DNA from: Erysipelotrichaceae bacterium
Lineage (GTDB): Bacteria > Bacillota_I > Bacilli_A > Erysipelotrichales > Erysipelotrichaceae
DNA length: 62,519 nt
Direction of reading: 5' to 3'
Assembly: GCA_017512885.1 (NCBI GenBank)
Contig: JAFWEP010000005.1
Location: forward strand, 1 to 62,519
Each line of letters starts with the position of its first letter. The stretch's first letter is position 1. Positions 3,227-31,547 of this stretch are shown one piece after another. The notes below the pieces were generated by a model that was not told the DNA's origin, ran no database searches, and saw nothing but the letters and a program-made list of their open reading frames with translations. A program made the position numbers and the translations under genes.

Positions 3227-5761
3227 TTATTCGCCTTCGGAGGTCTCCGGGGTCTCCGGGGTCGGGTCCGGAGTCGGCTCTGAAGTCGGTTCTGAAGTCG
3301 GTTCTGAAGTCGGTTCTGAAGTCGGTTCCGGTGTCGAAGTCGATTCCGGGGTCGGCGTCGGTTCCGTTGTCGGGGTCGGCGTGGTCTCCGGTGTCGGAGT
3401 GGGCGTCGTTTCCGGGGTCGGGGTCGGGGTGGTCTCCGGAGTCGGAGTAGGCGTCGTTTCCGGAGTCGGGGTCGGGGTGGTCTCCGGAGTCGGAGTCGGA
3501 GTAGTCGTCGGTTCCGGCGTTGCCTCGGTGCCCTTGGAAACCGTTACCTTGATCGTCGCATAGGGCTTGGCACTGCCTTCCGTCTGCGCGATAACGATGC
3601 CCTTCGCTTCCTTGGAATCCGCCTCTGTTACGGAGATGTTGCTGAAGCCGGCATTTTTCAATGTCGCAACAGCATCGGCCTGAGCCAGACCGGTAACGTT
3701 CGGGATCGGGATCGCCGGAACATTGTAGTACTTGACGGTCAGAGAACCGGCATTCTTATTGGAACCGGCAGCCGGAGTCTGGGCAAAGACCAGACCGTCC
3801 TTGGACGGATCGACTTCGTCCTGCGCTTCTGCGGTGAAGGCTACGCCATTCGCTGCAGCCCAGGATTCAGCTTCCGTAACAGGTCTGTTGAAGAAATCCG
3901 GGACCTTGTCTTCTTCGCTGATCGAGCCCATGACGGTCAACGTACAACCGCCGTTAACAGCCAGCGCACCATATCTGCAGGACTGAGAGACAACGAGTCC
4001 TGCGCTGCCTTCGCTGTAACCCGGATCACCGTTATTGATGTAGTTCGGGCTGGCAAAGTAAGAAGCGCCGATGCTGGCTACTGCCTCATCATAGGTAAGA
4101 CCAACATAGTTGCGGTAGAATGCCGGCATCTGTTCGTGTTCCTCTGCCTCATTGAAGTATTCACTGTAGGCCGGACCGCGCTGATACGGGTATTCGACGA
4201 AGAACTTGAAGTAGTCTTCCTGCTGGATCTCGCTGTCATCGATCTGATCGAGGACCAGACGGGAAGTTTCCTTCGCTTCAGCGATGGAACCATTGTAGAG
4301 CTTGTAGATCCATAACGGCAGCTGCAGGCTCATATCATAATGCCAGGAGGCATAACCGGTGATACGGGTACCGATGATGTCGATGGTCTGGAAGGTCGAG
4401 AGACCGGTATAGTTCGGCGTGCTGACCATATAGTTGAAGATCGCCGTCAGCTGGTTCAGGGACAGGTTGGTGGAGAAGTTCTCACCGGCTGCTTCCATGA
4501 CATCCAGCGCTTTATTGACATCGCGCAGAGCGATCAGTCTTTCGACGATCTGGGCGATGACTTCCTTCTGATGCTGCTGACGGTCGAAGTCGCCGTTGGG
4601 CATCAGTTTTCTTTCACGGGCAAAGGCCAGAGCCTGTTTGCCGTCAGCCCACTGTCCGCCGGCACCGACCCATACGGTGTAGTTGCCGCGGATATCGGAA
4701 GGATCCTGACCGACGAATTCGATCGGGGAATCGATCCAGATACCGCCTAAGGCATCGACGATATCGACGACGCCCTGGAAGTTGACTTCCATGTAGAAGT
4801 CGACATTCGTATCCATCAGATCACCGACGGTCTCCATCAGACAGGCGCGGGATTCACCGCGGGCTGCATTGATCTTGGTCTTGCCGCCGTTGTAGCAGGA
4901 GATCGGGACATAGGAGTCACGGGCGATGGAGGTCAGCGAGACCTGCATCGACTGCGGGTTGACCGAGGCGAGGATGATCGCATCGGCCAGGCCGTAGTTT
5001 CCACCTGGTTCCGGAGCGAAACCAATTAAAAGGATATTGAAAGGCGTGACCGAGATATCCAGCCGGGAGCTGGCATTGTCCGCTGTCTTGACCTTTTCTT
5101 CAAAGGTCAGGATATCGGTCATCTTCTCCAGATATTCATCATAGCCCTCTTCGTTGCCGAACATCTGACGGTAGGATGACTGGAAAGCACCGGCATCGAC
5201 TTCTCCTTTGACCAGAGCCAGGAACAGGTCGTTGGCCGTGTCGTAAGGAATATAGGTGGCCGTTACGCCTTCGCTCTCGATCTTCTTCTGAGCCAGAGCA
5301 GCCACGGAGTTTTCGGCCGTTGAAGCGATGATGCCGACTTCCCTGCCGGACAGGTCCGTGACAGACTGGATGGCGTCATCGTAGGCAGCCAGTGAGATGT
5401 AGACGGTCTCGTACTGTTCTTCGCCTTCGTTTTCAATGACGTTGTCGACGACCTTGTTGAAGCGGCGCAGATAGAGCGCACCGGTCGCGGAAGTGATCAG
5501 TAAGAGGAAAGCCAGCACACCGGTCACGATCTTGATGCCGAAGTCACGGAAACGGTATCCTACATAGAACAGGATATCCATGATGATGACGAGGCAGATG
5601 ATCAGACCTGCGACGCTGAATAAAGCCTTCTGGGACAGACCGTAGTAACGGTAGGACCAGAGGATCAGTAATACGACGCCCACATGGGCTAAGACCGTCA
5701 GGACTGCAGTGACGATGCTGAAGGCCTGTTTTCCGACCTGGTTATTCACATTCTTGCTCAT
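3227..5761 (-). CDS. Giant LCP-family cell-wall polymer ligase with SBP-like and PASTA domains
   Basis: LCP enzymes move glycopolymers from undecaprenyl diphosphate to peptidoglycan outside the membrane. This protein has 844 residues, about twice the usual length. Order: three membrane helices (about 13-101); a region resembling a periplasmic substrate-binding lobe (about 115-225); the LCP catalytic domain (about 235-410) with the Asp of GLADAIILASVNP, the Arg of SIARDSYV and the Arg of FARERKLMPNGDFDRQQ; two or three PASTA-like repeats (about 560-744, clearest from PIPNVTGL to VTVSKG); and a Pro/Thr/Glu-rich tail of about 100 residues. PASTA domains bind peptidoglycan fragments, which fits attachment to the wall. 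It is cotranscribed with the gene 8 bases upstream. The ATG has a GAGGTGA ribosome site. Confidence 0.9.
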   Translation of the reverse strand: MSKNVNNQVGKQAFSIVTAVLTVLAHVGVVLLILWSYRYYGLSQKALFSVAGLIICLVIIMDILFYVGYRFRDFGIKIVTGVLAFLLLITSATGALYLRRFNKVVDNVIENEGEEQYETVYISLAAYDDAIQSVTDLSGREVGIIASTAENSVAALAQKKIESEGVTATYIPYDTANDLFLALVKGEVDAGAFQSSYRQMFGNEEGYDEYLEKMTDILTFEEKVKTADNASSRLDISVTPFNILLIGFAPEPGGNYGLADAIILASVNPQSMQVSLTSIARDSYVPISCYNGGKTKINAARGESRACLMETVGDLMDTNVDFYMEVNFQGVVDIVDALGGIWIDSPIEFVGQDPSDIRGNYTVWVGAGGQWADGKQALAFARERKLMPNGDFDRQQHQKEVIAQIVERLIALRDVNKALDVMEAAGENFSTNLSLNQLTAIFNYMVSTPNYTGLSTFQTIDIIGTRITGYASWHYDMSLQLPLWIYKLYNGSIAEAKETSRLVLDQIDDSEIQQEDYFKFFVEYPYQRGPAYSEYFNEAEEHEQMPAFYRNYVGLTYDEAVASIGASYFASPNYINNGDPGYSEGSAGLVVSQSCRYGALAVNGGCTLTVMGSISEEDKVPDFFNRPVTEAESWAAANGVAFTAEAQDEVDPSKDGLVFAQTPAAGSNKNAGSLTVKYYNVPAIPIPNVTGLAQADAVATLKNAGFSNISVTEADSKEAKGIVIAQTEGSAKPYATIKVTVSKGTEATPEPTTTPTPTPETTPTPTPETTPTPTPETTPTPTPETTPTPTPETTPTPTTEPTPTPESTSTPEPTSEPTSEPTSEPTSEPTPDPTPETPETSEGE
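3240..3530 (-). repeat. Tandem repeats coding the Pro/Thr-rich LCP tail
   Basis: Two repeat types lie in frame. Five or so copies of a 24-base unit encode TPTPTPET, and about four copies of a 12-base unit encode EPTS. The tail is low complexity and probably spans or embeds in the wall. Such arrays commonly vary in copy number by slippage, and both unit lengths are multiples of three so the frame would be kept. Confidence 0.9.
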
Positions 5762-6519: not shown

Positions 6520-7968
6520 TTACCGTGAGAATAAAGTTTCGTAGTTGTAGCCGCCGTATTTCCAGACCTGTTCCCGGTATTCGACATCCAGGAAGGAACG
6601 GTAGATGCCGTTTTCCGAGAGATAGGCAAGGCTCATCAGTCCTTCTCCGTAGTGCTCGGTATCTCCCAGACGGACCCATTCCGGACCGACGCTGACCTTC
6701 AGTCCGGCCGCTTCGGCAGAGACTTCTTCGTGTCCGGAAACAAGGATCTCCCCGTTATGCAGGATCGCGAAGTAAGGCTCGTTGTAGTCGAAATCGGTGA
6801 AACCGGCCAGACGCAGAGAGGAGCGAAGTTCTTCGGAAGGAACGTAGGAACAGGGAAGATAGCGCAGGAAGACATAGGCGGAAGAGTGCCGCAGTCTTAA
6901 TAAGACTTTCAGCGGATCGTCCTCGAAGTTCACATCATAGCCGGTATAGGGCTGAGCGGAAGTCCGGTAGAGATCGTCCAGTTCTTTGTGCGGCGTATGG
7001 GTGAAGGCCAGGTTCATCTCCTGCAGTTTCAGGGCCAGGGTATCGGTCGCTACGGCAGCTCCGTTGACATAGGTATGGAAACCGTCGGAGTGCACCTGCA
7101 TATAGTAGCCGAGGTCTTCGGCCTGCGTGAGGAAATCATAATAAGGAACACTGTGATCCTCAGCCCACTTCCAGAGAGCCTTCAATGAGGCATAGTCTTC
7201 TTCGCTGATGCCGTCGATCGGTGTCTTATAGAGGAAGAGCTGGATCCCGTGCTCCTGACAGATCTCATAGATCTCGTTCAGCGACTGTTCATCCAGCGGA
7301 GCCAGCTGTCCTGCTTCCACATCCCAGAGCCGGGGTCCCCAGAAGTTGCTGATGGGGTAGATCGGTTCGGAATAGACATAGCCGAAATCGGAACTGACGC
7401 CGTGCTCTTCCGCCAGAGCTTTCTGCGGCAAGAAGATGTCCCAGTCTTCCAGTGTCTTCCAGTCATTGTGGTAAGCCATGTAGTCGTTGTAGTAGGTCTC
7501 TGCCTTCTCTTCCGGCAGGTAAGAGATCGTCTTGTATTTTTCGTCGCCGCGCATCTGGTATTCGGCGGTGACATAGCAGCTGTCCGCCAAACACATATCG
7601 ATGTGCTGGGGCAGAGCGGTGTAACCCTCTAAGAAGACCAGTTTCGGACTCTGCGTCTTCAGTGCTTCCTTCAGCATCTGCACACTGACTTCCAGCGGCT
7701 GGCAGGCGCTGCCTAATACATAGGAATAGAGTCCGGTATCTTCATAGAAGAAGCCCGGCTGGAAGGAATACTGGGCATGCGAGGAACCGATGACCAGGAC
7801 ATCCATACTGTTCTCCGGCAGGGAGTGGAAGGAGGTCCCGCGGTCGACATCGCGGTTATAGAAGACCTTATTTAAATAGGTGAAGCAGCCGCAGAAGAGG
7901 ACGACCACCAGGACCGTCTTCAAGAGGATCTGCAGGACATTCAGAAAACTTTTACCGATATTCTTCAT
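6520..7968 (-). CDS. SGNH/DltD-like partner of the MBOAT acyltransferase
   Basis: This roughly 482-residue protein has one N-terminal membrane helix and an extracytoplasmic SGNH-hydrolase-like domain. The block I motif VIGSSHAQYS is at about 57-66 with the candidate nucleophile Ser, and the Asp/His block HSDGFHTYVNGA is at about 292-303. Proteins of this type (DltD, AlgJ/AlgX, PatB) receive an acyl group from a membrane MBOAT and place it on a polysaccharide or teichoic acid. It follows an MBOAT gene by 10 bases, the classic pairing. A GTG at 7977 is in frame, but the ATG at 7968 has a better-spaced GAGG site. Confidence 0.8.
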   Translation of the reverse strand: MKNIGKSFLNVLQILLKTVLVVVLFCGCFTYLNKVFYNRDVDRGTSFHSLPENSMDVLVIGSSHAQYSFQPGFFYEDTGLYSYVLGSACQPLEVSVQMLKEALKTQSPKLVFLEGYTALPQHIDMCLADSCYVTAEYQMRGDEKYKTISYLPEEKAETYYNDYMAYHNDWKTLEDWDIFLPQKALAEEHGVSSDFGYVYSEPIYPISNFWGPRLWDVEAGQLAPLDEQSLNEIYEICQEHGIQLFLYKTPIDGISEEDYASLKALWKWAEDHSVPYYDFLTQAEDLGYYMQVHSDGFHTYVNGAAVATDTLALKLQEMNLAFTHTPHKELDDLYRTSAQPYTGYDVNFEDDPLKVLLRLRHSSAYVFLRYLPCSYVPSEELRSSLRLAGFTDFDYNEPYFAILHNGEILVSGHEEVSAEAAGLKVSVGPEWVRLGDTEHYGEGLMSLAYLSENGIYRSFLDVEYREQVWKYGGYNYETLFSR

Positions 7969-7978
7969 TTCCTTCACC

Positions 7979-9466
7979 TCAGAACCATTGATAGATAAAG
8001 TCGGAAGCGGAAACGCTGCCGCCGAAGACGCCGAAGACCAGGAAGACCAGGATCAGGACCGCATAACCCAGCCAGCGCAGCGGGAAGAAGAGCCTGCTGT
8101 AGGCTTTGACCATGTCCCATTTGTCGCGCAGGATATCGGTCACGATGACGGTGATGAGGATGAAGAAGAGCCACTTCACTTCGTTGGCCGTCAGCCCCAT
8201 CAGTTCAAAGTCCAGTTTCTGCGGCGTACGCAGGGCCTGCCAGACCCCGGCCAGCTGTCCCATGTCGCTGTACTTGAAGAGCTGCCAGAGGATGGTGACG
8301 AAGAGGAAGTTGATCAGGATACCGAAGATGCGGAAGACGAGCGCAAAGGGCTTCTTCAGTTTCATCTTCCTGAAGGGCGACAGGATCAGTTCTTCAATGA
8401 TCTGTAAGATGCCGTGACCCAGTCCCCACCAGACAAAGTTCATGGTGGAACCGTGCCAGATGCCGGAAAGCAGGAAGACCGCCAGGATCGCCAGATACTG
8501 ACGGACTTTTCCCTTGCGGCTGCCGCCTAAGGGGATATAGACATAATCCCGGAAGAAAGAACCCAGGGAGATATGCCACCGGCGCCAGAATTCCTTGATG
8601 GTGGCTGCCAGATAAGGGGTATTGAAGTTCTTGGGGAACGAGAATCCCAGCAGTTTGGCACAGCCGATCGAGATGTTGGAATAGGCATCGAAATCCAGAT
8701 AGATCTGGAAGGAATAGAGGATGATCGCCAAGAGCGTATTGCCGCCGGTCATGCCTGCGGCCGAAGCTCTGGTCACGACGGAGGCGATGAAGTCGCAGAA
8801 AACGATCTTCTCAAACATGCCCAGCATCATCTGGAAGCCGCCGTTCTTGGCTTCGCTGTAATCAAAGGGCTGATCCTTGGTCAGGACGTCCTTGAAGTAG
8901 GCATAACGGTGGATCGGACCGGCAGTGACAGCCGGGAAGAAGAGCGCATAGTTGAAATAGACCAGGGGGTTGCGAACATCGATCTCGCCCTTATAGGCAT
9001 CGACCATCGCCGAGATGATCTTGAAGGTCACGAAGGAGAGGCCTAAGGGCATCAGGATGCTCTGACCGAACAAGGGAGCGAACTTGAAGGTGCCGAGGAT
9101 CACGACCGGTACCAGTATGCTTCCTAACAGAGCCCATTTGTTCTTCAATAACTGGTTCAGCAGAGCCAACAGCCAGCCTAACAGCGCCAGGAAGAGCAGC
9201 GATCCCAGATGGTAAGTCGAGAAGGAATATAAAAAGAAGAGATCTGCTGCCAGCAGGACGAAGGGTCTCAGTTTTCCCTTGAACGGTCTGGCCAGGCAGA
9301 AGACCAGGAAGACAAAGAGGATGAAGGCGAATGATAAAGGGGTCAGCTGAGGCAGTTTCTCCGGGAAGCGGAAGTAGTAATCTCCCAGGATGGCATAGCC
9401 ATCACCCAGAGAAAAAGTCCCTTCTCCCAGCAAGCCGTTCAGCCAGGCAAAAAGACTTTCGATCAT
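7979..9466 (-). CDS. MBOAT-family O-acyltransferase (first of two)
   Basis: This 495-residue polytopic protein has about ten membrane helices and the MBOAT core. The invariant His is in SGIWHGSTMNFVWWGLGHG near residue 338, and EFWRRWHISLGSFFRDYVYIPLGG, split here as EFWRRWHISL and FFRDYVYIPLGG, is the DltB/AlgI-type conserved loop. It would pass an acyl group, usually acetyl, from cytoplasmic acyl-CoA across the membrane to an SGNH partner. The partner is the next gene. Its start overlaps the upstream glycosyltransferase stop by 4 bases (ATGA), so translation is coupled. Confidence 0.92.
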   Translation of the reverse strand: MIESLFAWLNGLLGEGTFSLGDGYAILGDYYFRFPEKLPQLTPLSFAFILFVFLVFCLARPFKGKLRPFVLLAADLFFLYSFSTYHLGSLLFLALLGWLLALLNQLLKNKWALLGSILVPVVILGTFKFAPLFGQSILMPLGLSFVTFKIISAMVDAYKGEIDVRNPLVYFNYALFFPAVTAGPIHRYAYFKDVLTKDQPFDYSEAKNGGFQMMLGMFEKIVFCDFIASVVTRASAAGMTGGNTLLAIILYSFQIYLDFDAYSNISIGCAKLLGFSFPKNFNTPYLAATIKEFWRRWHISLGSFFRDYVYIPLGGSRKGKVRQYLAILAVFLLSGIWHGSTMNFVWWGLGHGILQIIEELILSPFRKMKLKKPFALVFRIFGILINFLFVTILWQLFKYSDMGQLAGVWQALRTPQKLDFELMGLTANEVKWLFFILITVIVTDILRDKWDMVKAYSRLFFPLRWLGYAVLILVFLVFGVFGGSVSASDFIYQWF

Positions 9467-10377
9467 AATCTCTCCTTAATAATGTAAGACGGACGGCGCT
9501 TGGTCTCGACATAGGTCTTGGCCAGGTATTCCCCGATGACCCCTAAGACCAGCAGCTGGATCCCTCCCAGCAGCGTAATGATCACGATCAGGCTCGGGAA
9601 ACCGGCGACCGGATCGCCGAAGATCAGGGCTTTGAGGGCAATGTAGATCATATAGAGGAAGCCAAAACCGGAGATGAGCGTTCCGGTGATCGTGGCGATG
9701 CGTAAAGGAGCGGTGGTAAAACCGACGATCCCTTCGATCGCATAACCGAACAGTTTCCAGAAGGACCATTTGGTCTCTCCGGCCACTCTTTCGACATTCT
9801 CATATTCCAGATACTTGGTGCGGAAACCGACCCAGGCAAAGATGCCCTTGGAGAAACGGTTCACTTCCTTCATGGAGAGGATCGCTTCGACCATCGCCCG
9901 TTTCATCATCCGGTAGTCACGGGCGCCGTCGACGATCTCCACATCGATCATCTTATTGATCAGCTTGTAGAACCTCCGGGCAAAGAAGGAACGGATGGGC
10001 GGTTCGCCCTTGCGGTCGACCCGGTAGGTCGCCACGCTGTCGTATTCCCCGCTCTGCACGATCTGTAACATCTCCGGCAAGAGCTTCGGAGGATCCTGCA
10101 GATCGGCATCCATGATGACGACATAGTCGCCTTTCGCTTCCGTCATCCCCGCCAGCATGGCGGCTTCTTTCCCGAAGTTGCGGGAAAAGGAAAGGATGAC
10201 GATGTGTTCGTCCTTCGCTTTCAGTTCTTTCGCTTTCTCGACGGTCTTGTCGGCAGAGCCGTCATCGACCAGGATCAGTTCGTATTCTCCCACCTGAGGC
10301 AGGTATTTCTCTAATTCCGCATAATAAAGAGGCAGTGCTGCTTCTTCGTTATAACAGGGAACGATAATGCTTAACAT
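9463..10377 (-). CDS. GtrB-type polyprenyl-phosphate glycosyltransferase (GT2)
   Basis: The 304-residue protein has a GT2 domain beginning MLSIIVPCYNEEAALP, the DPM1/GtrB motif MDADLQDPPK near residue 87-96 and two C-terminal membrane helices (about 230-300). This family transfers a sugar from a nucleotide sugar to undecaprenyl phosphate on the cytoplasmic face, supplying GT-C enzymes outside. Several GT-C-like proteins are encoded nearby. A longer frame exists upstream, but the ATG at 10377 has a perfect AAGGAGG with 6-base spacing. It sits exactly between the two MBOAT genes. Confidence 0.9.
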   Translation of the reverse strand: MLSIIVPCYNEEAALPLYYAELEKYLPQVGEYELILVDDGSADKTVEKAKELKAKDEHIVILSFSRNFGKEAAMLAGMTEAKGDYVVIMDADLQDPPKLLPEMLQIVQSGEYDSVATYRVDRKGEPPIRSFFARRFYKLINKMIDVEIVDGARDYRMMKRAMVEAILSMKEVNRFSKGIFAWVGFRTKYLEYENVERVAGETKWSFWKLFGYAIEGIVGFTTAPLRIATITGTLISGFGFLYMIYIALKALIFGDPVAGFPSLIVIITLLGGIQLLVLGVIGEYLAKTYVETKRRPSYIIKERL

Positions 10378-10396
10378 GATTCGCCTCCTTGGGGTC

Positions 10397-10405
10397 ATTA
10401 TATCA
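10397..10405 (-). promoter_or_regulatory. Candidate extended -10 promoter before the GtrB-type gene
   Basis: The minus strand reads TGATATAAT, a TGn extension plus a perfect -10 (10397-10402), starting in the stop codon of the upstream MBOAT. A 19-base gap with AAGGAGG leads to the ATG. No clear -35 is seen. It could add transcription of the second half of the acylation operon. Confidence 0.45.
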
Positions 10406-11785
10406 GAAATGGAAATAGATGAAGGGATTGTAGGAGTTATTGACGAGATAGAGCACACAGAGGAAGAAGACCAGGAGACTGCCGATGTCTCTGAGGACTT
10501 CCGCCCTCTCGCTCTCGCCCAGAGCCTTGGAGATCTTCTTCGGCAGCGGTGTGCAGAAGAAGACGCCGGCCAGGAGAGCGGGCGCCAGGGAAAGGAAGCC
10601 CATCTTCAGGAAGAGTCCGGCAGGCCAGGACGGCCGGCTGAACATCGCCTTCAGGAAGGCAACGATCTGGTAGCGTCCGGCTGAATTGAAGATGACCCAG
10701 CCGATGATCACACAGAGCAGCGTATACACCCGGTTCAGTACCGGCAGTTTCTTCAGGACTTTTAACAGGAACAGTTTCTCCAGCACCAGCAGGAAGAAGA
10801 ACCACAGTCCCCAGAGCACGAAGGTCCAGGCTGCTCCGTGCCAGAGTCCGGTCAGGGCCCAGACCACGAAGAGGTTGAAGATCTGCCGCAGCAGTCCTTT
10901 GCGGCTGCCGCCTAAGGGGATATAGACATAATCACGGAACCAGCTGGACAGTGAGATATGCCAGCGGCGCCAGAAGTCAGTGATCGAATCCGCCTGATAG
11001 GGATCGTTGAAGTTCTCCAGGAAGTGGAAACCGAAGATCCTGCCCAGACCGATCGCCATGTCGCTGTAGCCGCCGAAGTCGAAGTAGATCTGCAGGGTAT
11101 AGGCCAGCGCTCCGCTCCAGGCGGTCGCAAAGGTCAGCTCTTCCAGGGGAAGGGTGAAGATCTTGTTGGCGATGACTGCGGCGCTGTTGGCCAGGATGAC
11201 TTTCTTGCCCAGACCGTAGAAGAAACGGCGGAAGCCTTTGGAGGCATCTTCCCAGTTCTCTTTCCGTTCGGTCAGCTCCCGTTCGACATCCGCATAGCGG
11301 ACGATCGGTCCGGCGATCAGCTGCGGGAATAAAGAGACATAGCAGGCAAAGCGCAGCAGTTTCTTTTGCGGCTGCACCTTTCCCCGATAGATATCAAAGA
11401 GATAGGAAAGGATCTGGAAGGTATAGAAGCTGATGCCGATCGGCAGGGCCAGCTGCGGCGCTTCCAGAGAGGTATGCAGGATGCCGTTGATGTTGCGTAC
11501 GGCGAAGTCCGCATACTTATAGACGCCCAAGACCCCCAGATCCAGGAGGATCCCCAGGATCAGCCAGAGCGTCTTCTTCTCTTTGACCAGCTGAAATCCG
11601 ATCAGCCAGTTTAAGACGATCATACCGATCATCAGGAAGACATAGAGCGGTTCGCCCCAGGCATAGAAGATCAGTGAGAAGACTAAGAGCACCAGATTGC
11701 GCTGATCCCTTTCCTTCAGCAGGAAGTAGATCAGCAGCAGCGGCGGCAGGAAGGCAAAGAGAAAACTGAAACTGCTGAACAACAT
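10403..11785 (-). CDS. MBOAT-family O-acyltransferase (second of two)
   Basis: This 460-residue polytopic protein of the AlgI/PatA type carries the invariant His in LTGLWHGAAWTFVLWGLWF near residue 315 and the loop DFWRRWHISLSSWFRDYVY with IPLGGSRKG. It probably exports acyl groups for glycan O-acylation. The partner is the DHHW protein encoded one base upstream in the same operon. It is clearly a paralogue, not a duplicate, of the MBOAT at 7979-9466: the conserved loops match but the rest differs. Confidence 0.92.
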   Translation of the reverse strand: MLFSSFSFLFAFLPPLLLIYFLLKERDQRNLVLLVFSLIFYAWGEPLYVFLMIGMIVLNWLIGFQLVKEKKTLWLILGILLDLGVLGVYKYADFAVRNINGILHTSLEAPQLALPIGISFYTFQILSYLFDIYRGKVQPQKKLLRFACYVSLFPQLIAGPIVRYADVERELTERKENWEDASKGFRRFFYGLGKKVILANSAAVIANKIFTLPLEELTFATAWSGALAYTLQIYFDFGGYSDMAIGLGRIFGFHFLENFNDPYQADSITDFWRRWHISLSSWFRDYVYIPLGGSRKGLLRQIFNLFVVWALTGLWHGAAWTFVLWGLWFFFLLVLEKLFLLKVLKKLPVLNRVYTLLCVIIGWVIFNSAGRYQIVAFLKAMFSRPSWPAGLFLKMGFLSLAPALLAGVFFCTPLPKKISKALGESERAEVLRDIGSLLVFFLCVLYLVNNSYNPFIYFHF

Positions 11786-11786
11786 A

Positions 11787-12986
11787 TCAGTTCCCCCTTC
11801 CTATCGCATAGGACTCATAGGAGGCCATGAAGTAATTCTCGATCGTATACATGAAGAGGATCTTATCGACAGGATGTTCCTTTAAGAAAGCGTCATAGTT
11901 GAGAGGATCTCCCTCCGGACGCAGGATCCAGGTGTGATGGAAGTGCGAAGCCAGCAGTTCCGCAACGGCCTGGGTATAGGAATCTCCGACGATCAGGATC
12001 TCCCCTTCTCCCTGTTCGTTGGTGATCAGGGTGTGATCGCCATACGTAGAGTAAGCGGCATTGTAGTAGTATTCGTCTTCGGCCAGTTCGGGATCGGAGG
12101 CAAAGACGTTGGGATTCAGGATATCTTCGATCTTCTCTCCGTCCCAGGTCGTGACCGAAAGAGGCGGAAAGTCAAAGGTATAGACGCAGAAACGGTCTCC
12201 CGGCAGTACCCTTCCGGTCGCATTGCCGTGGGTGCCGTAGAAGGGCTTCTCTGCCGGCAGGCAGAACTCTTCCTTCGGTGACAGCGGATCGCTGACGCCC
12301 ATCAGCTGCAGGATCTCGGTATAGCCGCGGTAAGCGCCCTTGTAGTTCCAATGGTGGTCGGAAGCGTAGAAGAGCTGCTTGTAGTCATCCAGATCAACGA
12401 TCTGCAGGAAGGCGACCGGTACTTCCGCCTTCTCGGCCAGGAGCCGATTGTATTCCTGACCTTTGGAGACGATCCCATTAGCTTCATCGAAGAAGTTCAA
12501 TTCCTGAGCCTGATAGGGACGGTAGATATACATATCGACCTCAGGATAGTCCCTGGCCAGCTCATTGATCTCTTCGACTCTCTCCAGGATGTGCTGCAGG
12601 GTCGTTTCGTTCTCGGTGATCGGGTAGTAGATCATGTAGTCGCTGCTGCCGAGCTGCCAGCGGTTGCCGGTCTCCATCGGGGTCAGCAGAGTTTCCGGGT
12701 CGCCCTTGGTGCTGCCACGCAGCAGCCGGGTGACCGTAAAGTCCACCTTCTTCTTACCCTGCACGAGCGCATCCCGCAGCGGGAACTGGTCGATCAGCAG
12801 ATCTTCCAGGGTATCCTGGAAGGAGGCATCGAGGAAGCTTGTCTGTAATAAGGAAGAACGGGTCGTCAGGGCCCGGTTCTCGGTCACGGATACGCTCTTC
12901 TGCGGACGCAGGAATACGAAAAGAGAGAGACCGGCCAGCAGTCCGACACTGATGAGGGTAAAGATCTTTTCTCTTTTCTTGTTCAA
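11787..12986 (-). CDS. DHHW/AlgJ-like SGNH protein, partner of the second MBOAT
   Basis: This 399-residue protein has one N-terminal membrane helix (about 8-28) and an extracytoplasmic SGNH-like domain of the DHHW family. The name-giving motif SDHHWNYKGAY is at about 208-218 and the Ser block ILIVGDSYTQ near 328-337, giving Ser, Asp and His candidates. AlgJ/AlgX-type relatives carry out the final acyl transfer to a polysaccharide. The start codon is TTG, with AAGGAGA eight bases or so before it. One base separates it from the MBOAT gene downstream. Confidence 0.85.
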   Translation of the reverse strand: MNKKREKIFTLISVGLLAGLSLFVFLRPQKSVSVTENRALTTRSSLLQTSFLDASFQDTLEDLLIDQFPLRDALVQGKKKVDFTVTRLLRGSTKGDPETLLTPMETGNRWQLGSSDYMIYYPITENETTLQHILERVEEINELARDYPEVDMYIYRPYQAQELNFFDEANGIVSKGQEYNRLLAEKAEVPVAFLQIVDLDDYKQLFYASDHHWNYKGAYRGYTEILQLMGVSDPLSPKEEFCLPAEKPFYGTHGNATGRVLPGDRFCVYTFDFPPLSVTTWDGEKIEDILNPNVFASDPELAEDEYYYNAAYSTYGDHTLITNEQGEGEILIVGDSYTQAVAELLASHFHHTWILRPEGDPLNYDAFLKEHPVDKILFMYTIENYFMASYESYAIGRGN

Positions 12987-13004
12987 AGCGGTCTCCTTAA
13001 AAGT

Positions 13005-14012
13005 TCAGAACAGGACCTGCAGCGGTCTCTGCAGGAGGGCGATCCCCTTGTGGAAGAGGATACCAAGCAATATCGTAGCGATCGTCAGCGGATACCAGAC
13101 GATATCCCAGCCGATGCAGCCGGCCAGCCAGATCGCTGCCGGATCATTGAAGGTCACGTTCAGCAGGTAGATCTCCAGCGAAGCACTGCCGCAGAGCAGC
13201 AGGAAACGCTTCAGCAGATTCCTTTCGGATAAGCGGTTCAGTCCGAGGGCCAGCAGATAGCAGAGGCCGGGGACAGCGATCAGGAAGGGATACCAGTACA
13301 TGCCGTAGGTGAAGAGGCAGTCCTTCAGATAAGTCTGCGTCAGCGGCAGAGCGATGACACCGATGACCGCAGTCAATAACAGCACAAGGAACGGAATACC
13401 GCTCTCTTCTTCCTTCTTCGAAGCGAAGACCATGCCCAGCAGATAGACCGGGATGCGGCTGTACAGCATCATCTTCCCGCCGTCGCCGATCCCGTCGAAG
13501 TACACCAGCAGGATGTAGGGGATCAGCAGCAGGTAAGCCTTCTTCCGCTTCACCAGCGCATAGAAGAGCGGGCTCAGCAGATACATATAAAGGATAAAGA
13601 AGAGGTACCAGTTGAAGGGTTCCTTCCCGGTATAGAAGGCAATGCCGAAGACGTTATGCAGGAAGGCGATGACGATCTCGGCTTTGCTGAGAGATTCACG
13701 CAGGCTGCGGTAACGGGTCAGGAAGGACAAGGCCAGTACGATCAGGTAGCTGGGGTAGAGGCGCAGGATCCTCTTCTTATAGAATTCCGTGAGTTTTCCT
13801 TCCTTCTGCAGGGAATGCCAGATCCCGAAACCGGACAGGAAAACGAAAAGATCGACTCCGGCATAGCCGTTGTTCTTGACGATCGTCAGCGGTCCGAAAG
13901 AGATGCCGCTGTGATAGGCAACGACCAGCAGGATGCCGATCCCCATGATCGCCGTCCTGGCTTTGGATACGGCATGGGCAAATTCACGAAAAGATACGTT
14001 TTCTTTCATCAT
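13005..14012 (-). CDS. Acyltransferase family 3 (AT3) membrane protein
   Basis: This 335-residue protein has about ten membrane helices. The first conserved block is VAYHSG (residues about 32-37), with the His used by this family, and NNGYAGVDLFVFLSGFGIW follows (about 53-71). AT3 proteins O-acetylate surface glycans or lipids. It is one of three AT3 genes in the window, and the only one inside the MBOAT operon. It directly follows the upstream GT-C gene with no spacer. Substrate is unknown. Confidence 0.88.
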   Translation of the reverse strand: MMKENVSFREFAHAVSKARTAIMGIGILLVVAYHSGISFGPLTIVKNNGYAGVDLFVFLSGFGIWHSLQKEGKLTEFYKKRILRLYPSYLIVLALSFLTRYRSLRESLSKAEIVIAFLHNVFGIAFYTGKEPFNWYLFFILYMYLLSPLFYALVKRKKAYLLLIPYILLVYFDGIGDGGKMMLYSRIPVYLLGMVFASKKEEESGIPFLVLLLTAVIGVIALPLTQTYLKDCLFTYGMYWYPFLIAVPGLCYLLALGLNRLSERNLLKRFLLLCGSASLEIYLLNVTFNDPAAIWLAGCIGWDIVWYPLTIATILLGILFHKGIALLQRPLQVLF

Positions 14013-15521
14013 TCAGTATTTTACCATCTTCGTTTTCCCTGTGCTACGGAAGAGGCAGGAAAGACCGTAAGCGGCATAAGGCAGCAGGAACAAATGGTAC
14101 TGATAGAGGTAGATCGCCTTCACTTCCCAGAAGGCATGGAAGAGGAAACCGCCGAGAACGATCACCGCCGGCAGCAGGACCGTGAGGTCCTTCTTCTTCC
14201 GATAAGATGCAACAAAGATGAGTGTTCCCAGAGCGATCAGAGAGGAAGCGGCATCCCAGATCTCATTGGCAGCGTCATTGATCCAGCCGCTGATGATGAG
14301 CTGATTGGTCTCCGTTACCGGCAGTTCCCGGTACTGGGCAAAAGCTTCATACTCCGGATTCGCAAAGGCGACCCGGAACTTGCGGGAATAGAAGGTCAGC
14401 GCTTTGGCCGGTTCCCGTCGGAAGTCATCGAGGATCCTCTCGATGAAGTCTTCGGCATACAGCTGTGCAGCTTCGGCCGACCAGCCTTCCTGTTTGTAGT
14501 AGTCTTCGATCTCCGGGGTATAGGAGCCGGGATGATACATCTCATAGTTCAGACCGTAGGCGATCCAGGCGATCTTGGGCAGTCGGTTGTCATAGTTGTT
14601 GCCGGAACGCTCTTCCCAGTAGCGGACGACACCGCTCGTTCCCGCCCAGGTCAATAACAGCAAAGCGGCCATATAGCCGATCAGCAGCTTCTTCTTCTCT
14701 TTCAGCAGATGCAGGAAGAGGAAGATCAGCTCGGCGACCAACAGGATCAGGGAGTTGTTTTTGATGAAGATCGAAAGCGTCAGGAAGAAGGCATTGATCA
14801 GCAGTCCTGCTTTCTTTCCCTTGCGCAGATACAGCAGCAGTCCCCAGATCCCGATCATGCCGGAGGCATAGGATACCGCATTGCCGTAGATGAAGTAGCA
14901 GTAGAAGACGAACTGCAGCTGCAGGAAGAAGAAACAGGCCAGGAGATAGTTCACTCTCTCATCCTCAAACAGCAGATCGGAGATCCCGTACAGGGCGGCA
15001 TAGCCGGCCAGACAGAAAAGCAGGTTGACCAGCCGGATATAGGTGTTGGCATACTCTCCGAAGGGACGGGTGAACAGCAGGAACCAGCTCATCAGCCCCA
15101 GGTTGTTGGGATAGGTATTGATGTAGCTCTGATAGGAGAGCGGGGTCAGATCGCCCAGAGCTACAGCCTGGGCGGTATTCATGACGTTCATCGCGTCATC
15201 CTGGGTGACCAGGTAAGTGACGTTGCTGCGGATCCAATAGATGCCGATCAATAGCGAAACTGCCAGGAAGACAGCCAGCAGGATCTTGCTGTTCCCGATC
15301 TTTTTGCGATGCAGGAGATGTAATGCCGCCAGCAGGAGCAGCGTGACCAGGATATTGCGCAGGGAGATCAGCTGATAGTCAGCTTTGTAGAAGTCACCGG
15401 TGTTGTACTGGCGGACTGTAAAGAAGACGTTCGCAATGAAAAAGAGTATCGCAAAAACAGAAAAACAGAGCAGAGCTGTTTTCCTTGCGAATTCCAGAAA
15501 TCTCTCTGTTCCGTTCTTCAT
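14013..15521 (-). CDS. GT-C-fold membrane glycosyltransferase-like protein
   Basis: This 502-residue protein has about eleven membrane helices. The first large outer loop has the acidic motif TQDDAMNVMN near residue 112, in the position of the catalytic Asp of GT39-like GT-C enzymes, followed by TYPNNLGLMSWF. Such enzymes use polyprenyl-phosphate sugars outside the membrane to modify a polymer or lipid. The GtrB-type enzyme in the same operon could supply the donor. Sequence identity to a named enzyme cannot be claimed. Confidence 0.75.
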   Translation of the reverse strand: MKNGTERFLEFARKTALLCFSVFAILFFIANVFFTVRQYNTGDFYKADYQLISLRNILVTLLLLAALHLLHRKKIGNSKILLAVFLAVSLLIGIYWIRSNVTYLVTQDDAMNVMNTAQAVALGDLTPLSYQSYINTYPNNLGLMSWFLLFTRPFGEYANTYIRLVNLLFCLAGYAALYGISDLLFEDERVNYLLACFFFLQLQFVFYCYFIYGNAVSYASGMIGIWGLLLYLRKGKKAGLLINAFFLTLSIFIKNNSLILLVAELIFLFLHLLKEKKKLLIGYMAALLLLTWAGTSGVVRYWEERSGNNYDNRLPKIAWIAYGLNYEMYHPGSYTPEIEDYYKQEGWSAEAAQLYAEDFIERILDDFRREPAKALTFYSRKFRVAFANPEYEAFAQYRELPVTETNQLIISGWINDAANEIWDAASSLIALGTLIFVASYRKKKDLTVLLPAVIVLGGFLFHAFWEVKAIYLYQYHLFLLPYAAYGLSCLFRSTGKTKMVKY

Positions 15522-15524
15522 CGT

Positions 15525-17366
15525 CTATTCTTCTCCGAAATAATCCAGCTGCAGGATCTTTCCGCAGATATTGCGCTTCTGCATGAACGCATCGATTTTC
15601 TGCCGGGCTGCCTCTTCCGTTCCCTGCCGCATATGCAGGATGTCCTTGAGGGCATCATAGTAGAAATCTTCGCATTCCAGACTGTAGTCGGCATTGAAGG
15701 TCAGCGTACCGCCGCTGAAGATATCTCTGCCGAAGGCATATTCGCGCGGGTAATGGATATCCCAGAGGTTGCAGATCGTGGGCAGGAAGTCCAGCGCTGT
15801 CGCATAGGCTTCGCTCTCCTCGTGGGTCATGCCCGGGGCAAAGAGGAAGCAGGTGGTATAGCCGATCTCCGGATCCGTTTCTTCATTCCTGCCGAAGACC
15901 TGATCATAATTGCTGCCGGGACCGAGGTCGAGACCCTTCGCATGATGGTCGCCGAAGACCAGGATGACAGTATTCTCCAGTCTTCCGCTCCAGTCCATGA
16001 CGTTGATGAAGGTGCCTAAGGCTTTGTCCAGATCCATCGCCTTGGCGATGTAGGAAGCGTTCGCTTCATCGATCCCCGGATAGGTATCCAGGACCTTCTG
16101 GTAATCTGCCGGATCGACGCCGACTTCATTCTTCGTATAGGTCTGGTGTCCGCTGTAAGTGACCCAGTAGCCCAGGAAGTGTTCCTTCTCAGAGAGGATC
16201 CAGCCCAGCTGTTCGGCAAGTTCGGAGTCCGGAGTCAGGTTCTTGACGCCTAAGGCGTAGGAATCCATGAAGTGATAGCCGTATTTGGGGAAGGTCTCTG
16301 CCCGGTTGTAGTATTCGGAATAGTTGTTGTGGAAGGCTTCGGTAGTATAGCCGGCATTCTGGAATACTTCGCCCAGGGTCAGGGGGAAGGCATTGGTGAT
16401 GTGCTGGTAACAGACCGGATAACCGCCGCTGACCGGGATCATCGAAGTATTGGTCATGAACTCGGAGTCCGAGGTCGAACCGATCAGAAGAGGTGTATTG
16501 AAGTTCTTGAAGACGATCCCGTTCTGCATGTACCAGTACATGTTGGGAGTCAGTTCTTCGCTGATGGCCATGTTCATGAGAGATTCGGCCTGTACGATCA
16601 GGAGATCCTTCCCGGCAAAGAGACCGGTCTTCTCGTTGGTGTACTTTGCGGTATCAGCAGAGGCAAGATATGCAGCGATCTCTTCTCTTTCAGCTGCCGC
16701 ATCGCTGCTTTCAGTCGTACGCAGCGACTGTGCATCGCGGTAGGACAGGGTCAGTAAGCCCAGCTTCTGCACGAACTGATTGGTTGTCGGAACAGCATCA
16801 TAGAGATAGTAGTCACTCTTGTAGATATCGAAATCGGTATAGCCTTCCTTCGTCTTTTCGATCTGCGCTTCCATGGCATGGAAAGAGAAGAAAGCCAGCA
16901 GGAACAGCGGGATGCAGAAGAGACGGCTGAAACGGAAACGGACCTTCCCCTTCTGCAGTACGAAATACAGCACCAGGAAAAGGATCACGATCAGCAGCAG
17001 TACAAGGAAAGGAACGATATCCGAGAACTTCACCAGTTCCCAGGCTGCTCCTTTGACATCTGCCACTTCCTTCCTGAGACCGAGTGCGGTCGCAAAGCGG
17101 AAGTACTGATCAAAACCCTTGTGATAGACATTCTGGGCTACCAGATAAAGCGTAAAAACACCGCCCAGCAGTAAAGCCAGGATCCTGTTCGGGAACGGAC
17201 CGCTCAGTACCAGGATGCCTAAGATGATGCAGGCATAGGCCAGAAAGGCCCAGAGGTCATAGGATGCGGAAACGGAATAGGCATTCTTGATGAACAGGAG
17301 ATAGGCAAAGACAGAGACAAGGAACAATACCTCTGTCAGGATCCCGATCAGTTTCTTTTGTTTCAT
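15525..17366 (-). CDS. LtaS-like phosphoglycerol/phosphoethanolamine transferase (sulfatase fold)
   Basis: This 613-residue protein has five N-terminal membrane helices (to about 170) and an extracytoplasmic alkaline-phosphatase-fold domain. Metal and catalytic blocks of LTA synthases are present: IVQAES near 254-259, GSTSDSEFMTNTSM near 295-308 with the catalytic Thr of STSDSEF, and VFGDHHAKG near 469-477. LtaS polymerises glycerol phosphate from phosphatidylglycerol; relatives add single phospho groups. It heads the acylation operon, which suggests that the acylated product is a lipoteichoic-acid-like or other phosphopolymer. The ATG has a GAGGTA ribosome site and an extended -10 promoter at 17396-17404. 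Confidence 0.88.
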   Translation of the reverse strand: MKQKKLIGILTEVLFLVSVFAYLLFIKNAYSVSASYDLWAFLAYACIILGILVLSGPFPNRILALLLGGVFTLYLVAQNVYHKGFDQYFRFATALGLRKEVADVKGAAWELVKFSDIVPFLVLLLIVILFLVLYFVLQKGKVRFRFSRLFCIPLFLLAFFSFHAMEAQIEKTKEGYTDFDIYKSDYYLYDAVPTTNQFVQKLGLLTLSYRDAQSLRTTESSDAAAEREEIAAYLASADTAKYTNEKTGLFAGKDLLIVQAESLMNMAISEELTPNMYWYMQNGIVFKNFNTPLLIGSTSDSEFMTNTSMIPVSGGYPVCYQHITNAFPLTLGEVFQNAGYTTEAFHNNYSEYYNRAETFPKYGYHFMDSYALGVKNLTPDSELAEQLGWILSEKEHFLGYWVTYSGHQTYTKNEVGVDPADYQKVLDTYPGIDEANASYIAKAMDLDKALGTFINVMDWSGRLENTVILVFGDHHAKGLDLGPGSNYDQVFGRNEETDPEIGYTTCFLFAPGMTHEESEAYATALDFLPTICNLWDIHYPREYAFGRDIFSGGTLTFNADYSLECEDFYYDALKDILHMRQGTEEAARQKIDAFMQKRNICGKILQLDYFGEE

Positions 17367-17423: not shown

Positions 17424-19139
17424 ATGAACTCTTTATCCAGAAACCTGCTTCGTATCGGTGTTTTAGGGATCTGGCCCTTGATCCTGCTGCTGTCCTTCCT
17501 TTTCCTGCTGCGTCATCGGCAGGACAGAGAGACCCTGAAGAAATACGGCAAAAACATCCTGCTGAACAGCATCCTCTTCGCTGTCCTGCTGAGCATTGCC
17601 GTATTCCTCTTCTTCCGCATCGAAGATACCGTCTACTCTTATGACTACGCCGGACACTGGATCCGTTCCCTGCAGCTGCAGAAATGGTTCTACGAAGATC
17701 CTGCCCATATCCTGCCGGAACTCTTCCGTTCCATGAACGAGAATGACTATTCCTTCCTGCCCGGTGTGCTGTCCCTCTTCCTGACCCTCTGGCAGACTTC
17801 CTATGGCTGGTTCTGTCTCTCTATCATCTGGGCCTATCTGTTTCCCCTGACCCTGCTGCTGCAGCTGATCTACTTCCGCTTCTATACCAACAGATATCTG
17901 CCTTTACTGATCGGGATCATCTTCTATCCGCTGTGGTTCATCCTCTTTAACGGAGAGAGTGACGGCGGCGGACTGTTCTTCGTTACGATGATCCTGGCCT
18001 TACTGCTGGCAAGGCCTTACGAAGAAAGCGATCTTATCGATCATCTGGCGGTGAACCTCTATGCCTTCCTGATGATCTTCTTCCGCCGCTGGTATCTCTA
18101 TGTGCTGATCGTCTGCTACCTGCTGATCCTGGTCAGGTATCTGCTGCAGTACCGCAAAGACCTGCTTTCCAAAGAGAGCCTTCAGCATCTGCTCTATACC
18201 GTCCTGACCGGACTGCCGGCCCTGCTGGTCATCCTGATCTTCTTCCGTCCCTTTGTCGGAAGAGTGCTCGGCAGCAACTTCTCGGAAGCCTACAGTTTCT
18301 ATGACCGCAGCGGAAAGCTTGCAGCACTCATCAACTTCTTCTCGCTGCCGATCCTGCTGATCAGCCTTTACGGTCTCTACGGCCTGTATCAGAAGAAGAG
18401 ATATGCCTGGATCGCAGCGATCCTTACGGCGATCATCCTGCCGACCTTCCTCTTCTGGCGCATCCAGTCCTACGAACATCACCACTACTGCATCATCCTG
18501 CTGCCGATCTTAACAGCCTTCACGGAAGGTCTGCATTCCTTCAGTGATAAAAAGATCATCCTGCTGCCCTTAAGCATCCTACTGGCAGTACAGAGCTTCC
18601 TGATCTTCACCCCGGTCAAAGCACCGCTGCTGACTTCCGTAAAGCGGATCCCCGATACCGAGACCGCCAAGTATAAGAACGAACTGCTGCAGTTCAGTCT
18701 GCAGCTCAGGGAACTGACCTCCGGGGAAGGCATCTCCGCCTACCTGGCTTCCGGCTCCTCCGTCCTCAATGACGACATGATCCGTAACGTGTTATTGCCC
18801 GATCTCGATCAGCCGCAGATCGATACGGCCGTCCTGGACCTGCGGGACGGTTTCCCCAAGGATCTGGAGTACATCCGCTACGTGATCCTGATCGATCCCA
18901 TCCAGTACCTCAACAAAGACTACCAGCATATCTACGAAGTCATCACCGAAGCCATCCAGAAGGAACCGCTCGTCAAGGAGCTGTACCAGCCGGTCTATGA
19001 GACGAAGATCGATGAACTGAAAGTCACGGTATATGAAAGGACAGGGGATTTCTCCCCTGCCGTCAAAGAGTATTTCTATCAGAAGATGCTGGAATACTAT
19101 CCGGATAAAGCAGACTTCTTCGCCTACATCCTGGACTGA
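17424..19139 (+). CDS. GT-C-like polytopic membrane protein
   Basis: This 571-residue protein has about eleven membrane helices. After the second helix, the outer loop has SYDYAGHWIRSLQLQKWFYE (near 72-91), with acidic residues placed like the catalytic Asp of GT-C enzymes, then a C-terminal soluble domain from about 420. It is probably a glycosyltransferase that uses a polyprenyl-linked sugar. It is the only plus-strand gene in the left half and converges on 19124-20827, overlapping its 3' end by 16 bases. A plus-strand terminator lies inside that neighbour. Confidence 0.65.
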   Translation: MNSLSRNLLRIGVLGIWPLILLLSFLFLLRHRQDRETLKKYGKNILLNSILFAVLLSIAVFLFFRIEDTVYSYDYAGHWIRSLQLQKWFYEDPAHILPELFRSMNENDYSFLPGVLSLFLTLWQTSYGWFCLSIIWAYLFPLTLLLQLIYFRFYTNRYLPLLIGIIFYPLWFILFNGESDGGGLFFVTMILALLLARPYEESDLIDHLAVNLYAFLMIFFRRWYLYVLIVCYLLILVRYLLQYRKDLLSKESLQHLLYTVLTGLPALLVILIFFRPFVGRVLGSNFSEAYSFYDRSGKLAALINFFSLPILLISLYGLYGLYQKKRYAWIAAILTAIILPTFLFWRIQSYEHHHYCIILLPILTAFTEGLHSFSDKKIILLPLSILLAVQSFLIFTPVKAPLLTSVKRIPDTETAKYKNELLQFSLQLRELTSGEGISAYLASGSSVLNDDMIRNVLLPDLDQPQIDTAVLDLRDGFPKDLEYIRYVILIDPIQYLNKDYQHIYEVITEAIQKEPLVKELYQPVYETKIDELKVTVYERTGDFSPAVKEYFYQKMLEYYPDKADFFAYILD

Positions 19140-23196: not shown

Positions 23197-24498
23197 TTAC
23201 TTCCCTTCCTCAGGCCGTTCCGTCCGGTCACGGACAGAGATCACTTCAGCCCCCTGCAGGGCGATCTTCCCCCAGTTGCGGTGATCCCAGTCCAGTTCCC
23301 CTGCCGTACGCTTCCGGCGTACCTGAAAGGACAGCCCGGGAACGTTCTCGATGTTCAGGTTGCTGCCAAGTTCATCCCGCACAAAGAAGTTATAGACCGT
23401 GATATAGGTACCGTCGGAAAACTCCCTGAGCGGATATTCCACGGTGATCTCTCTTCTTTCGTCTTTTCTTAGATCCGCCAGATCATACAGGATAAAAGTC
23501 CCTGTCGGTTCATCGAAAGGATCGCGTACTTCGATACGCAAAGACACGCCTTGAATGTCTGCTGCTGCAGAACAGTCCAGCACCAGCCGTATCTTCTCGT
23601 CATGGAAGAAGGAGGAACGTTCTTCGGCAAAATGCGCCGAATGCAGGAAAAGAGGCTGTTCCTTCAGCCAGGAAGGACGGGCGATATCACTGTAGTCGAT
23701 CGTTGTTTCTTCCCGTACCTGCTGATGCAGATAGATCCGGATCGCTTCCTCGGGATCACCGTCGAAGACGATGCGGCCCTGATCCAGGACGATGCAGCGG
23801 GTGCAGAGCTTGCGGATCTGCTGCATATTGTGGCTGACACAGAGGACGGTCCGGCCCTGTAAGGAGGAAGCCTCTTTCATATAGCGGATACACTTGTTCT
23901 GGAAGTCGTTGTCTCCGACCGCCAGGACCTCATCCACGATGATGATCTCGCTGTTCAGATTTGCCGTGACCGAGAAGCCCAGTTTCATATACATGCCGCT
24001 GGAGTAACGTTTGACCGGAGTGTCGATGAATTCGCGCAGTCCGGAGAATTCGATGATGTCTTCGATCTTCTCATCGATCTCTTCCTTCCGCATGCCTAAG
24101 AGGGTCCCGTTAAAGTAGATGTTCTCCCGGCCGGTCAGTTCTCCGTCGAAACCGGTCCCCACTTCCAGCATGGTCGTGACTCTGCCGGCGATATCGATAG
24201 TGCCTGTCGTAGGAGCGGTGATCCGCGAGATCAGCTTCAGCAGGGTGCTCTTCCCGGCTCCGTTGGCCCCGATGATGCCGACCGCTTCTCCGGCATGAAC
24301 GGTCAGATCGATATCCTGCAGGGCATAGAAAAGATCGCCGTAAGTGCCCTTGCTGCCGATCTTGCGGTTGGGATCTTCCTTTCCTCTTTTTCTGGCCCAC
24401 CAGCTCTGCAGTTCCCGCTGCAGGGTCGTGGAATTGATCTGTCCGATCCGGTAACGCTTGCTGACGCCGCGGACAGCGATCATCGTATCTTTTTCCAT
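23197..24498 (-). CDS. ABC transporter ATPase of Wzt type, with a C-terminal extra domain
   Basis: This 433-residue protein has an ABC domain (about 1-250) with Walker A IIGANGAGKSTLL (about 77-89), signature YSSGMYMKLGFS (about 163-174) and Walker B IIIVDEVLAVGD (about 181-192). Residues about 275-420 form an extra beta-rich domain, as in Wzt and TagH-like proteins. In Wzt from O9a-type systems the extra domain binds the modified non-reducing end of the glycan and so couples chain termination to export. It is one base from the permease gene. The methyltransferase/kinase-like/LicD fusion encoded four genes upstream is a candidate maker of such an end group. Confidence 0.92.
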   Translation of the reverse strand: MEKDTMIAVRGVSKRYRIGQINSTTLQRELQSWWARKRGKEDPNRKIGSKGTYGDLFYALQDIDLTVHAGEAVGIIGANGAGKSTLLKLISRITAPTTGTIDIAGRVTTMLEVGTGFDGELTGRENIYFNGTLLGMRKEEIDEKIEDIIEFSGLREFIDTPVKRYSSGMYMKLGFSVTANLNSEIIIVDEVLAVGDNDFQNKCIRYMKEASSLQGRTVLCVSHNMQQIRKLCTRCIVLDQGRIVFDGDPEEAIRIYLHQQVREETTIDYSDIARPSWLKEQPLFLHSAHFAEERSSFFHDEKIRLVLDCSAAADIQGVSLRIEVRDPFDEPTGTFILYDLADLRKDERREITVEYPLREFSDGTYITVYNFFVRDELGSNLNIENVPGLSFQVRRKRTAGELDWDHRNWGKIALQGAEVISVRDRTERPEEGK

Positions 24499-24499
24499 A

Positions 24500-31530: not shown

Positions 31531-31547
31531 CTTTCCTCCATACGCTC

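Follow-up and report, generated by a model that had tools for sequence, protein, structure and literature searches.

Why should a single operon carry two different MBOAT/SGNH acylation pairs, and on which surface polymer do they act? The question is raised by a stretch of 62,519 nucleotides of Erysipelotrichaceae DNA (contig JAFWEP010000005.1, assembly GCA_017512885.1), referred to here as the window, which forms contig C36 of a genome of 2.09 Mb with a completeness rating of 100%. The host is a gut bacterium and a relative of Solobacterium; the closest named matches of the window SGNH protein are in uncultured Erysipelotrichaceae and Solobacterium genomes. Each enzyme of the operon is of a known type, and what is uncommon is the presence of two distinct acylation pairs in one operon. 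Its ten genes look like a candidate kit for decorating a wall-attached polymer with glycerol-phosphate, sugar and two or more acyl groups, each delivered separately. The best explanation, with a probability of roughly 0.6, is that the substrate is an LCP-linked wall glycopolymer that receives glycerol-phosphate, a side sugar and the acyl groups of two separate pairs.

The eight genes listed in a preliminary description of this DNA are all present on the minus strand between positions 6520 and 17366, with intergenic gaps of -4 to 22 bp (Table 1). They encode, in order, an LtaS-like enzyme, a GT-C glycosyltransferase, an AT3 acyltransferase, the DHHW protein and MBOAT1 (pair 1), a GtrB-type enzyme, and MBOAT2 and the SGNH protein (pair 2). 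The GtrB gene probably starts at an internal ATG near 10380 and not at 10458, because the latter start overlaps MBOAT1. The operon extends past these eight genes to u227 (6453–5770, after a gap of 66 bp) and then to an LCP-PASTA gene (5761–3227, after 8 bp), giving ten closely spaced genes down to 3227. Thirteen homologues of u227 were found, and the gene adjoins LCP in relatives; the protein belongs to no Pfam family, and a fold search with its model (pLDDT 85.5) returned no confident match. The LCP ligase (3227–5761) carries a phosphonate-binding-like N-terminal insert in addition to its PASTA domains and long TPTPE tail. Promoter-like sites were no commoner in a scan than in shuffled sequences, and no conclusion is drawn from the terminator-like sites (27, against 14.5 in shuffles, sd 4.6).

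The two pairs are distinct and apparently functional, as the preliminary description proposed. Both MBOAT1 and MBOAT2 keep the active-site His of the WHG motif and a C-terminal FxYxxF hexapeptide (FIYFHF and FIYQWF, respectively). This is the acyl-shuttle element, which in PatA becomes auto-acetylated on its Tyr and in DltX carries an aminoacyl group there (PMC12148441). Among the loci fetched for comparison, which include repeat copies of some identical genome regions, both the shuttle Tyr and the WHG His are present in 121/121 full-length MBOAT genes, and the complete hexapeptide in 118. In a tree of 106 MBOAT sequences, those of the pair-1 type (type 1, with a DHHW partner) form a group with support 100, and those of the pair-2 type (type 2, with an S-type SGNH partner) a group with support 99. 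Changes of partner label on this tree are far fewer than in shuffles, falling below all of them. The MBOATs of pairs 1 and 2 are distinct groups that follow partner type, and are pair-specific; an SGNH gene lies directly 3' of the MBOAT2-type gene in 57 of 63 cases. The pairs are also modular, each being found in relatives without the other. Tandem duplication as the origin of the two pairs is ruled out, since the MBOATs fall in separate groups and the partner folds differ. Pairs 1 and 2 represent old, separate lineages, and therefore probably acylate different positions or residues.

Loss of active-site residues from one partner, which the preliminary description had flagged as fatal to the idea of two working pairs, is not seen. 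In the window SGNH protein, Ser66 and His301 are invariant in 106/106 homologues and Asp298 is present in 91/106. A search of PDB sequences with this protein gave chance matches only, so its fold was compared instead. Foldseek with the AlphaFold model (pLDDT 89.5) placed GDSL hydrolases first, followed by DltD (6pfx) and gonococcal PatB (7tlv; E 8e-4). The comparison with DltD and PatB suggested in the preliminary description thus finds a resemblance to both, but the two matches are similarly weak, and the modelled fold alone cannot choose between them. The DHHW protein of pair 1 is similar over its full length (phmmer to 5v8d, E 1e-11; family profile, E 7e-40) to PatB1, which in Bacillus cereus acts as a wall-polysaccharide O-acetyltransferase (PMC9487903). 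Its catalytic triad is kept: Asp210 and His212 are invariant in 17 homologues, and Ser336 nearly so, one sequence being truncated at the edge of its contig. A degenerate SGNH or DHHW partner is ruled out as far as Ser and His are concerned; the PatB1 oxyanion Arg, considered below, is a real departure.

Stacked pairs are not confined to the window. Two MBOAT genes lie within 10 kb of each other in 8 of 57 family genomes, and any MBOAT gene is present in 41/57, so the earlier statement that MBOAT/SGNH pairs normally occur once per locus was too strong for this family. MBOAT types were scored in seven of the eight genomes (G056 was left out): G000, G003, G020 and G055 combine types 1 and 2, G022 and G032 have two of type 1, and G050 has two of type 2. 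Pair stacking is recurrent in the family, and single pairs are commoner. The two-MBOAT idea also has precedent, since in B. anthracis both PatA1 and PatA2 contribute to O-acetylation of the secondary cell wall polysaccharide (PMC7759979). In the spirochaete Brachyspira, two loci (L170, L172) carry two tandem MBOAT/SGNH pairs of clostridial type, which fall among Lachnospiraceae in the MBOAT tree.

The acceptor is likeliest to be the wall glycopolymer of the adjoining cluster of TagH-like ABC, LicD, TagD and LCP genes, rather than lipoteichoic acid. First, the operon ends in an LCP ligase. Second, it adjoins an ABC/LicD cluster that also contains a UDP-galactopyranose mutase and several glycosyltransferases. 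Third, the linkage is kept in the same-genus genome G003, where the order MBOAT1, DHHW, LtaS, MBOAT2, SGNH, GtrB, u227, LCP runs directly into LicD, a TagD-Gfo/Idh gene, more LicD genes and ABC genes. Fourth, among type-2 pair loci an LCP gene is near in 12/44, this type of LtaS in 2/44 and DltA in 0/44. Together these features favour an LCP-linked wall polymer receiving glycerol-phosphate, and they do not support the lipoteichoic-acid-like acceptor of the preliminary description. The gene-order survey called for there finds the decoration genes linked in G003, pairs stacked elsewhere in the family, and type-2 pairs seldom near this LtaS type. A search of the literature on Erysipelotrichaceae wall polymers found nothing useful. 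Between the LicD genes of the window, a TagD-like glycerol-3-phosphate cytidylyltransferase is fused to a Gfo/Idh oxidoreductase (39412–40767), which suggests an unusual CDP-activated polyol.

In the proposed mechanism, the adjoining LicD/TagD/glycosyltransferase cluster would build the polymer, the TagH-like ABC transporter would carry it out of the cell and the LCP ligase would join it to peptidoglycan. At the outer membrane face, the LtaS-family enzyme would transfer glycerol-phosphate from phosphatidylglycerol to the polymer. GtrB would make a polyprenyl-phosphate sugar, and a GtrA-type flippase encoded elsewhere, together with a GT-C enzyme, would attach it as a side branch. The Tyr in the C-terminal FxYxxF peptide of each MBOAT would be loaded with an acyl group, for which acetyl supplied by acetyl-CoA is the likeliest candidate. 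The MBOAT's own SGNH partner would take over this group on its catalytic Ser and form an ester with a polymer hydroxyl. A third acyl group may come from AT3. The sequence itself shows which genes are present, the conservation of catalytic residues and shuttle motifs, the specificity of the pairs and their linkage to the LCP/ABC cluster; the donor, the nature of the acyl groups, the acceptor and the sharing of work between the pairs are inferred. The side-branch set is divided in this genome: the locus holds a GT2 enzyme with C-terminal transmembrane helices and the GT-C protein (eight hydrophobic segments in a simple scan), while GtrA homologues occur only elsewhere, on contig C38. A YfhO-family protein is a possible alternative partner for the GtrB enzyme.

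Several observations weigh against this reading, in its chemistry, its acceptor and its donor. The first concerns the DHHW protein. PatB1 Arg359 (Block II), an oxyanion residue reported to be invariant in PatB1 homologues and essential (PMC9487903), has no counterpart at the aligned position, where the window protein has Glu, with an Arg two residues earlier (Arg-Pro-Glu at the place of Asp-Leu-Arg). L076 and L077, the two complete relatives closest to it, do not have the residue either, and the chemistry of pair 1 may differ in this DHHW subclade.

The second concerns the LtaS-like enzyme, which by its five-helix layout could polymerise glycerol-phosphate as in lipoteichoic acid. It matches an LtaS structure (4uoo, E 4e-18), has five transmembrane helices within residues 1–165 as in LtaS, and lacks a long membrane domain of about 395 residues such as that of GacH (residues 1–395; PMC12282279). 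Its active site is intact, with E261, the catalytic T298, H346 and R355 in 13/13 homologues and H407, D473 and H474 in the 12/12 that cover these positions, although its 105 bits are far below the NCBIfam LtaS equivalog cut-off of 970. In addition, this LtaS type is near 5/17 type-1 pair loci, against 2/44 of type 2 (Fisher p 0.015), which may mean that pair 1 works on a polymer, or part of one, made of glycerol-phosphate. The enzyme might then make a lipoteichoic-acid-like glycerol-phosphate polymer that both pairs and AT3 acylate, on the polymer itself or on a side sugar; the fold, catalytic Thr and helices of the enzyme and the enrichment near type-1 pairs are in keeping with such a polymer, and CsbB/YfhO-type systems glycosylate lipoteichoic acid in B. 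subtilis and S. aureus (PMC8035078). This is nevertheless unlikely, given the LCP end of the operon, its place beside the ABC/LicD cluster and the linkage kept in G003. An LtaS of this type is missing from the neighbourhood of most type-2 pairs, and PatB1-type partners are known from wall polysaccharide. Moreover, a second LtaS-family gene on contig C27 (L090:7468–9435) has a housekeeping context, with a diacylglycerol kinase gene a few genes away and PhoH and Mur-ligase genes nearby, and its product appears the better candidate for lipoteichoic acid synthase.

The third concerns the donor. The window contains no DltA or DltC gene, as the preliminary description stated, but the same does not hold for the genome: contig C15 (L066:393–9057) encodes a DltA-like ligase (301 bits to TIGR01734), a GNAT protein and a DltC-like carrier, followed by SGNH, MBOAT, SGNH and MBOAT genes. 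The ligase and carrier could supply the window pairs in trans, and the group added would then be an amino acid, either D-alanine or a different small one. The C15 locus itself, with two SGNH/MBOAT pairs whose MBOATs carry the FxYxxF motif, is in keeping with such a route. So is genome G005 (L071:1815–12327), where MBOAT1, DHHW, an acyl carrier protein, a DltA-like ligase, YfhO, u227 and LCP share one operon and a PatA1/PatB1-type pair is apparently fed by the carrier. A separate dlt operon had been anticipated as a possible source for the window MBOATs, and the C15 ligase and carrier answer to it in part, but they have two pairs of their own. The MBOATs of those pairs end in FIYGQF and FIYGKF, a shuttle motif of their own, with no DltX seen there, and fall in a tree group different from that of the window MBOATs. 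A canonical dlt operon is ruled out by the absence of DltD-family proteins (no match to PF04914 in the whole genome, with controls positive) and by window MBOAT scores of 156 and 178 bits, below the DltB equivalog cut-off of 375.

Relatives make an amino acid improbable. DltA-like ligases above 250 bits occur in 9/57 family genomes. Among the nine genomes with strong matches to the window SGNH protein, such a ligase is present only in G000 and G005, and among the nine with strong matches to the window DHHW protein only in G000. G003, which carries both window-type pairs and is 88% complete, has no match to the C15 ligase at E 1e-20. Homologous pairs in relatives without a DltA-like ligase therefore point to acyl-CoA, most simply acetyl-CoA, as the donor for the window pairs. 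They also lend support to the earlier view that the acyl group is probably not D-alanine, on grounds other than the lack of DltA and DltC in the locus.

At the variable site of the ligase motif F-x-G-E, the ligases of L066 (7522–9057), L146, L154 and L071 have Ala, Ala, Ser or Val where DltA has Cys; as a lead only, the amino acid that they activate may be other than D-alanine. Also on C15, a membrane-protein gene (L066:9127–10670) appears split into two adjacent frames (10305–10670 and 9127–10251), a possible frameshift or assembly error, and a very long protein made up of Ig-like (BIG2-type) repeats (L066:14943–20000) adjoins the acylation locus.

Finally, it is highly improbable that the pairs O-acetylate peptidoglycan like PatA/PatB or OatA, with their operon position incidental. 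The Foldseek placement of the SGNH domain near gonococcal PatB, as well as DltD and GDSL hydrolases, would favour such a role; against it stand the patchy distribution of the pairs in the family and their repeated linkage, in relatives too, to LCP, GtrB and genes for glycopolymers.

Decoration of an LCP-linked wall glycopolymer would take the MBOAT/SGNH acyl-shuttle principle beyond a single pair for each polymer, to partner-specific pairs stacked in one wall-polymer operon of the little-studied Erysipelotrichaceae. The operon is a natural system for asking whether it is the SGNH partner, the MBOAT or the donor that determines which acyl group is added and where. As for the division of labour, a tentative suggestion is that one LCP-linked polymer receives a chemically different acyl group from each pair, or that the pairs acylate two different components of it, the glycerol-phosphate substituent and the glycan backbone. 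If so, this 2-Mb genome, with its C15 pairs, would run four MBOAT/SGNH lines and two donor chemistries. The C15 type, in which a DltA-like ligase and carrier accompany MBOATs with their own FxYxxF, goes against the published rule that MBOATs fed by a carrier rely on a separate DltX. From the type-1 pair of L071 it would seem that one kind of pair can change its donor, from acyl-CoA to a group bound to a carrier.

The remaining neighbours are listed in Table 1. Next to the LtaS-like gene, and divergently transcribed, is a gene for a 571-residue protein without a Pfam family (17424–19139), which adjoins LtaS in G003 as well.

Table 1. Genes of the acylation operon and of the adjoining glycopolymer cluster in the window
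Feature	Position	Strand	Supporting match
LtaS-family phosphoglycerol transferase, 613 aa, five N-terminal transmembrane helices	15525..17366	-	PF00884 E 1e-18
GT-C fold membrane glycosyltransferase, 502 aa	14013..15521	-	PMT_2 E 2e-5, 25.4 bits (cut-off 26.1)
AT3 acyltransferase, stand-alone, 335 aa, without fused SGNH domain	13005..14012	-	PF01757 E 4e-28
DHHW protein, PatB1-like SGNH O-acyltransferase	11787..12986	-	Pfam DHHW 23.4 bits (cut-off 25); phmmer to PatB1 5v8d E 1e-11
MBOAT1, PatA1-like, C-terminus FIYFHF	10403..11785	-	PF03062 E 8e-30
GtrB/CsbB/PgfS-type polyprenyl-phosphate glycosyltransferase (GT2), C-terminal transmembrane helices	9463..10380	-	PgfS model 323 bits (cut-off 500)
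MBOAT2, C-terminus FIYQWF	7979..9466	-	PF03062 E 4e-27
SGNH acyltransferase, extracytoplasmic, one N-terminal transmembrane helix, SGNH domain and C-terminal beta domain	6520..7977	-	Pfam: none
u227, conserved extracytoplasmic protein with one transmembrane helix, 227 aa	5770..6453	-	no Pfam family
LCP-family wall-polymer ligase, C-terminal PASTA domains, TPTPE tail	3227..5761	-	PF03816 E 1e-34; PASTA E 3e-20
YfhO-family GT-C protein	19124..20827	-	PF09586 36.1 bits (cut-off 28.5)
ABC exporter, TagH-like ATPase and permease	23197..25354	-	teichoic acids export ATPase models are best matches; ABC2_membrane
Glycopolymer synthesis genes: three LicD, TagD/Gfo-Idh fusion, GT2s, GT61, HAD, phosphoesterase	26700..41609	-	

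Four known systems share parts of this arrangement. Dlt D-alanylation (DltA, B, C, D and X) follows the same MBOAT plus SGNH logic, but the window locus has no DltA, DltC or DltD-family genes, and its shuttle motif is fused to the MBOAT instead of residing on DltX. The peptidoglycan O-acetyltransferase PatA/PatB has the same C-terminal FxYxxF Tyr, active-site His and separate SGNH protein with a catalytic Ser; unlike it, the window pairs lie in the context of a wall glycopolymer cluster, and the SGNH protein is only weakly similar in structure and carries an additional beta domain at its C-terminus. GacH of the group A carbohydrate is likewise an LtaS-family enzyme beside an ABC-exported, LCP-type polysaccharide with GtrB/GT-C side-chain genes (PMC12282279, PMC8035078), although its membrane domain is long and that of the window enzyme is short and of the LtaS type. 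PatA1/PatB1 (with PatA2), which O-acetylates the secondary cell wall polysaccharide of the B. cereus group, has a DHHW partner whose triad runs in the same order (Asp/His, then Ser), an adjacent FxYxxF MBOAT and more than one MBOAT for one polymer. The window differs in that its second SGNH protein is not of the DHHW type, its DHHW protein has no Block II Arg at the aligned place, and both pairs share one operon with LtaS-like, GtrB, GT-C, AT3 and LCP genes.

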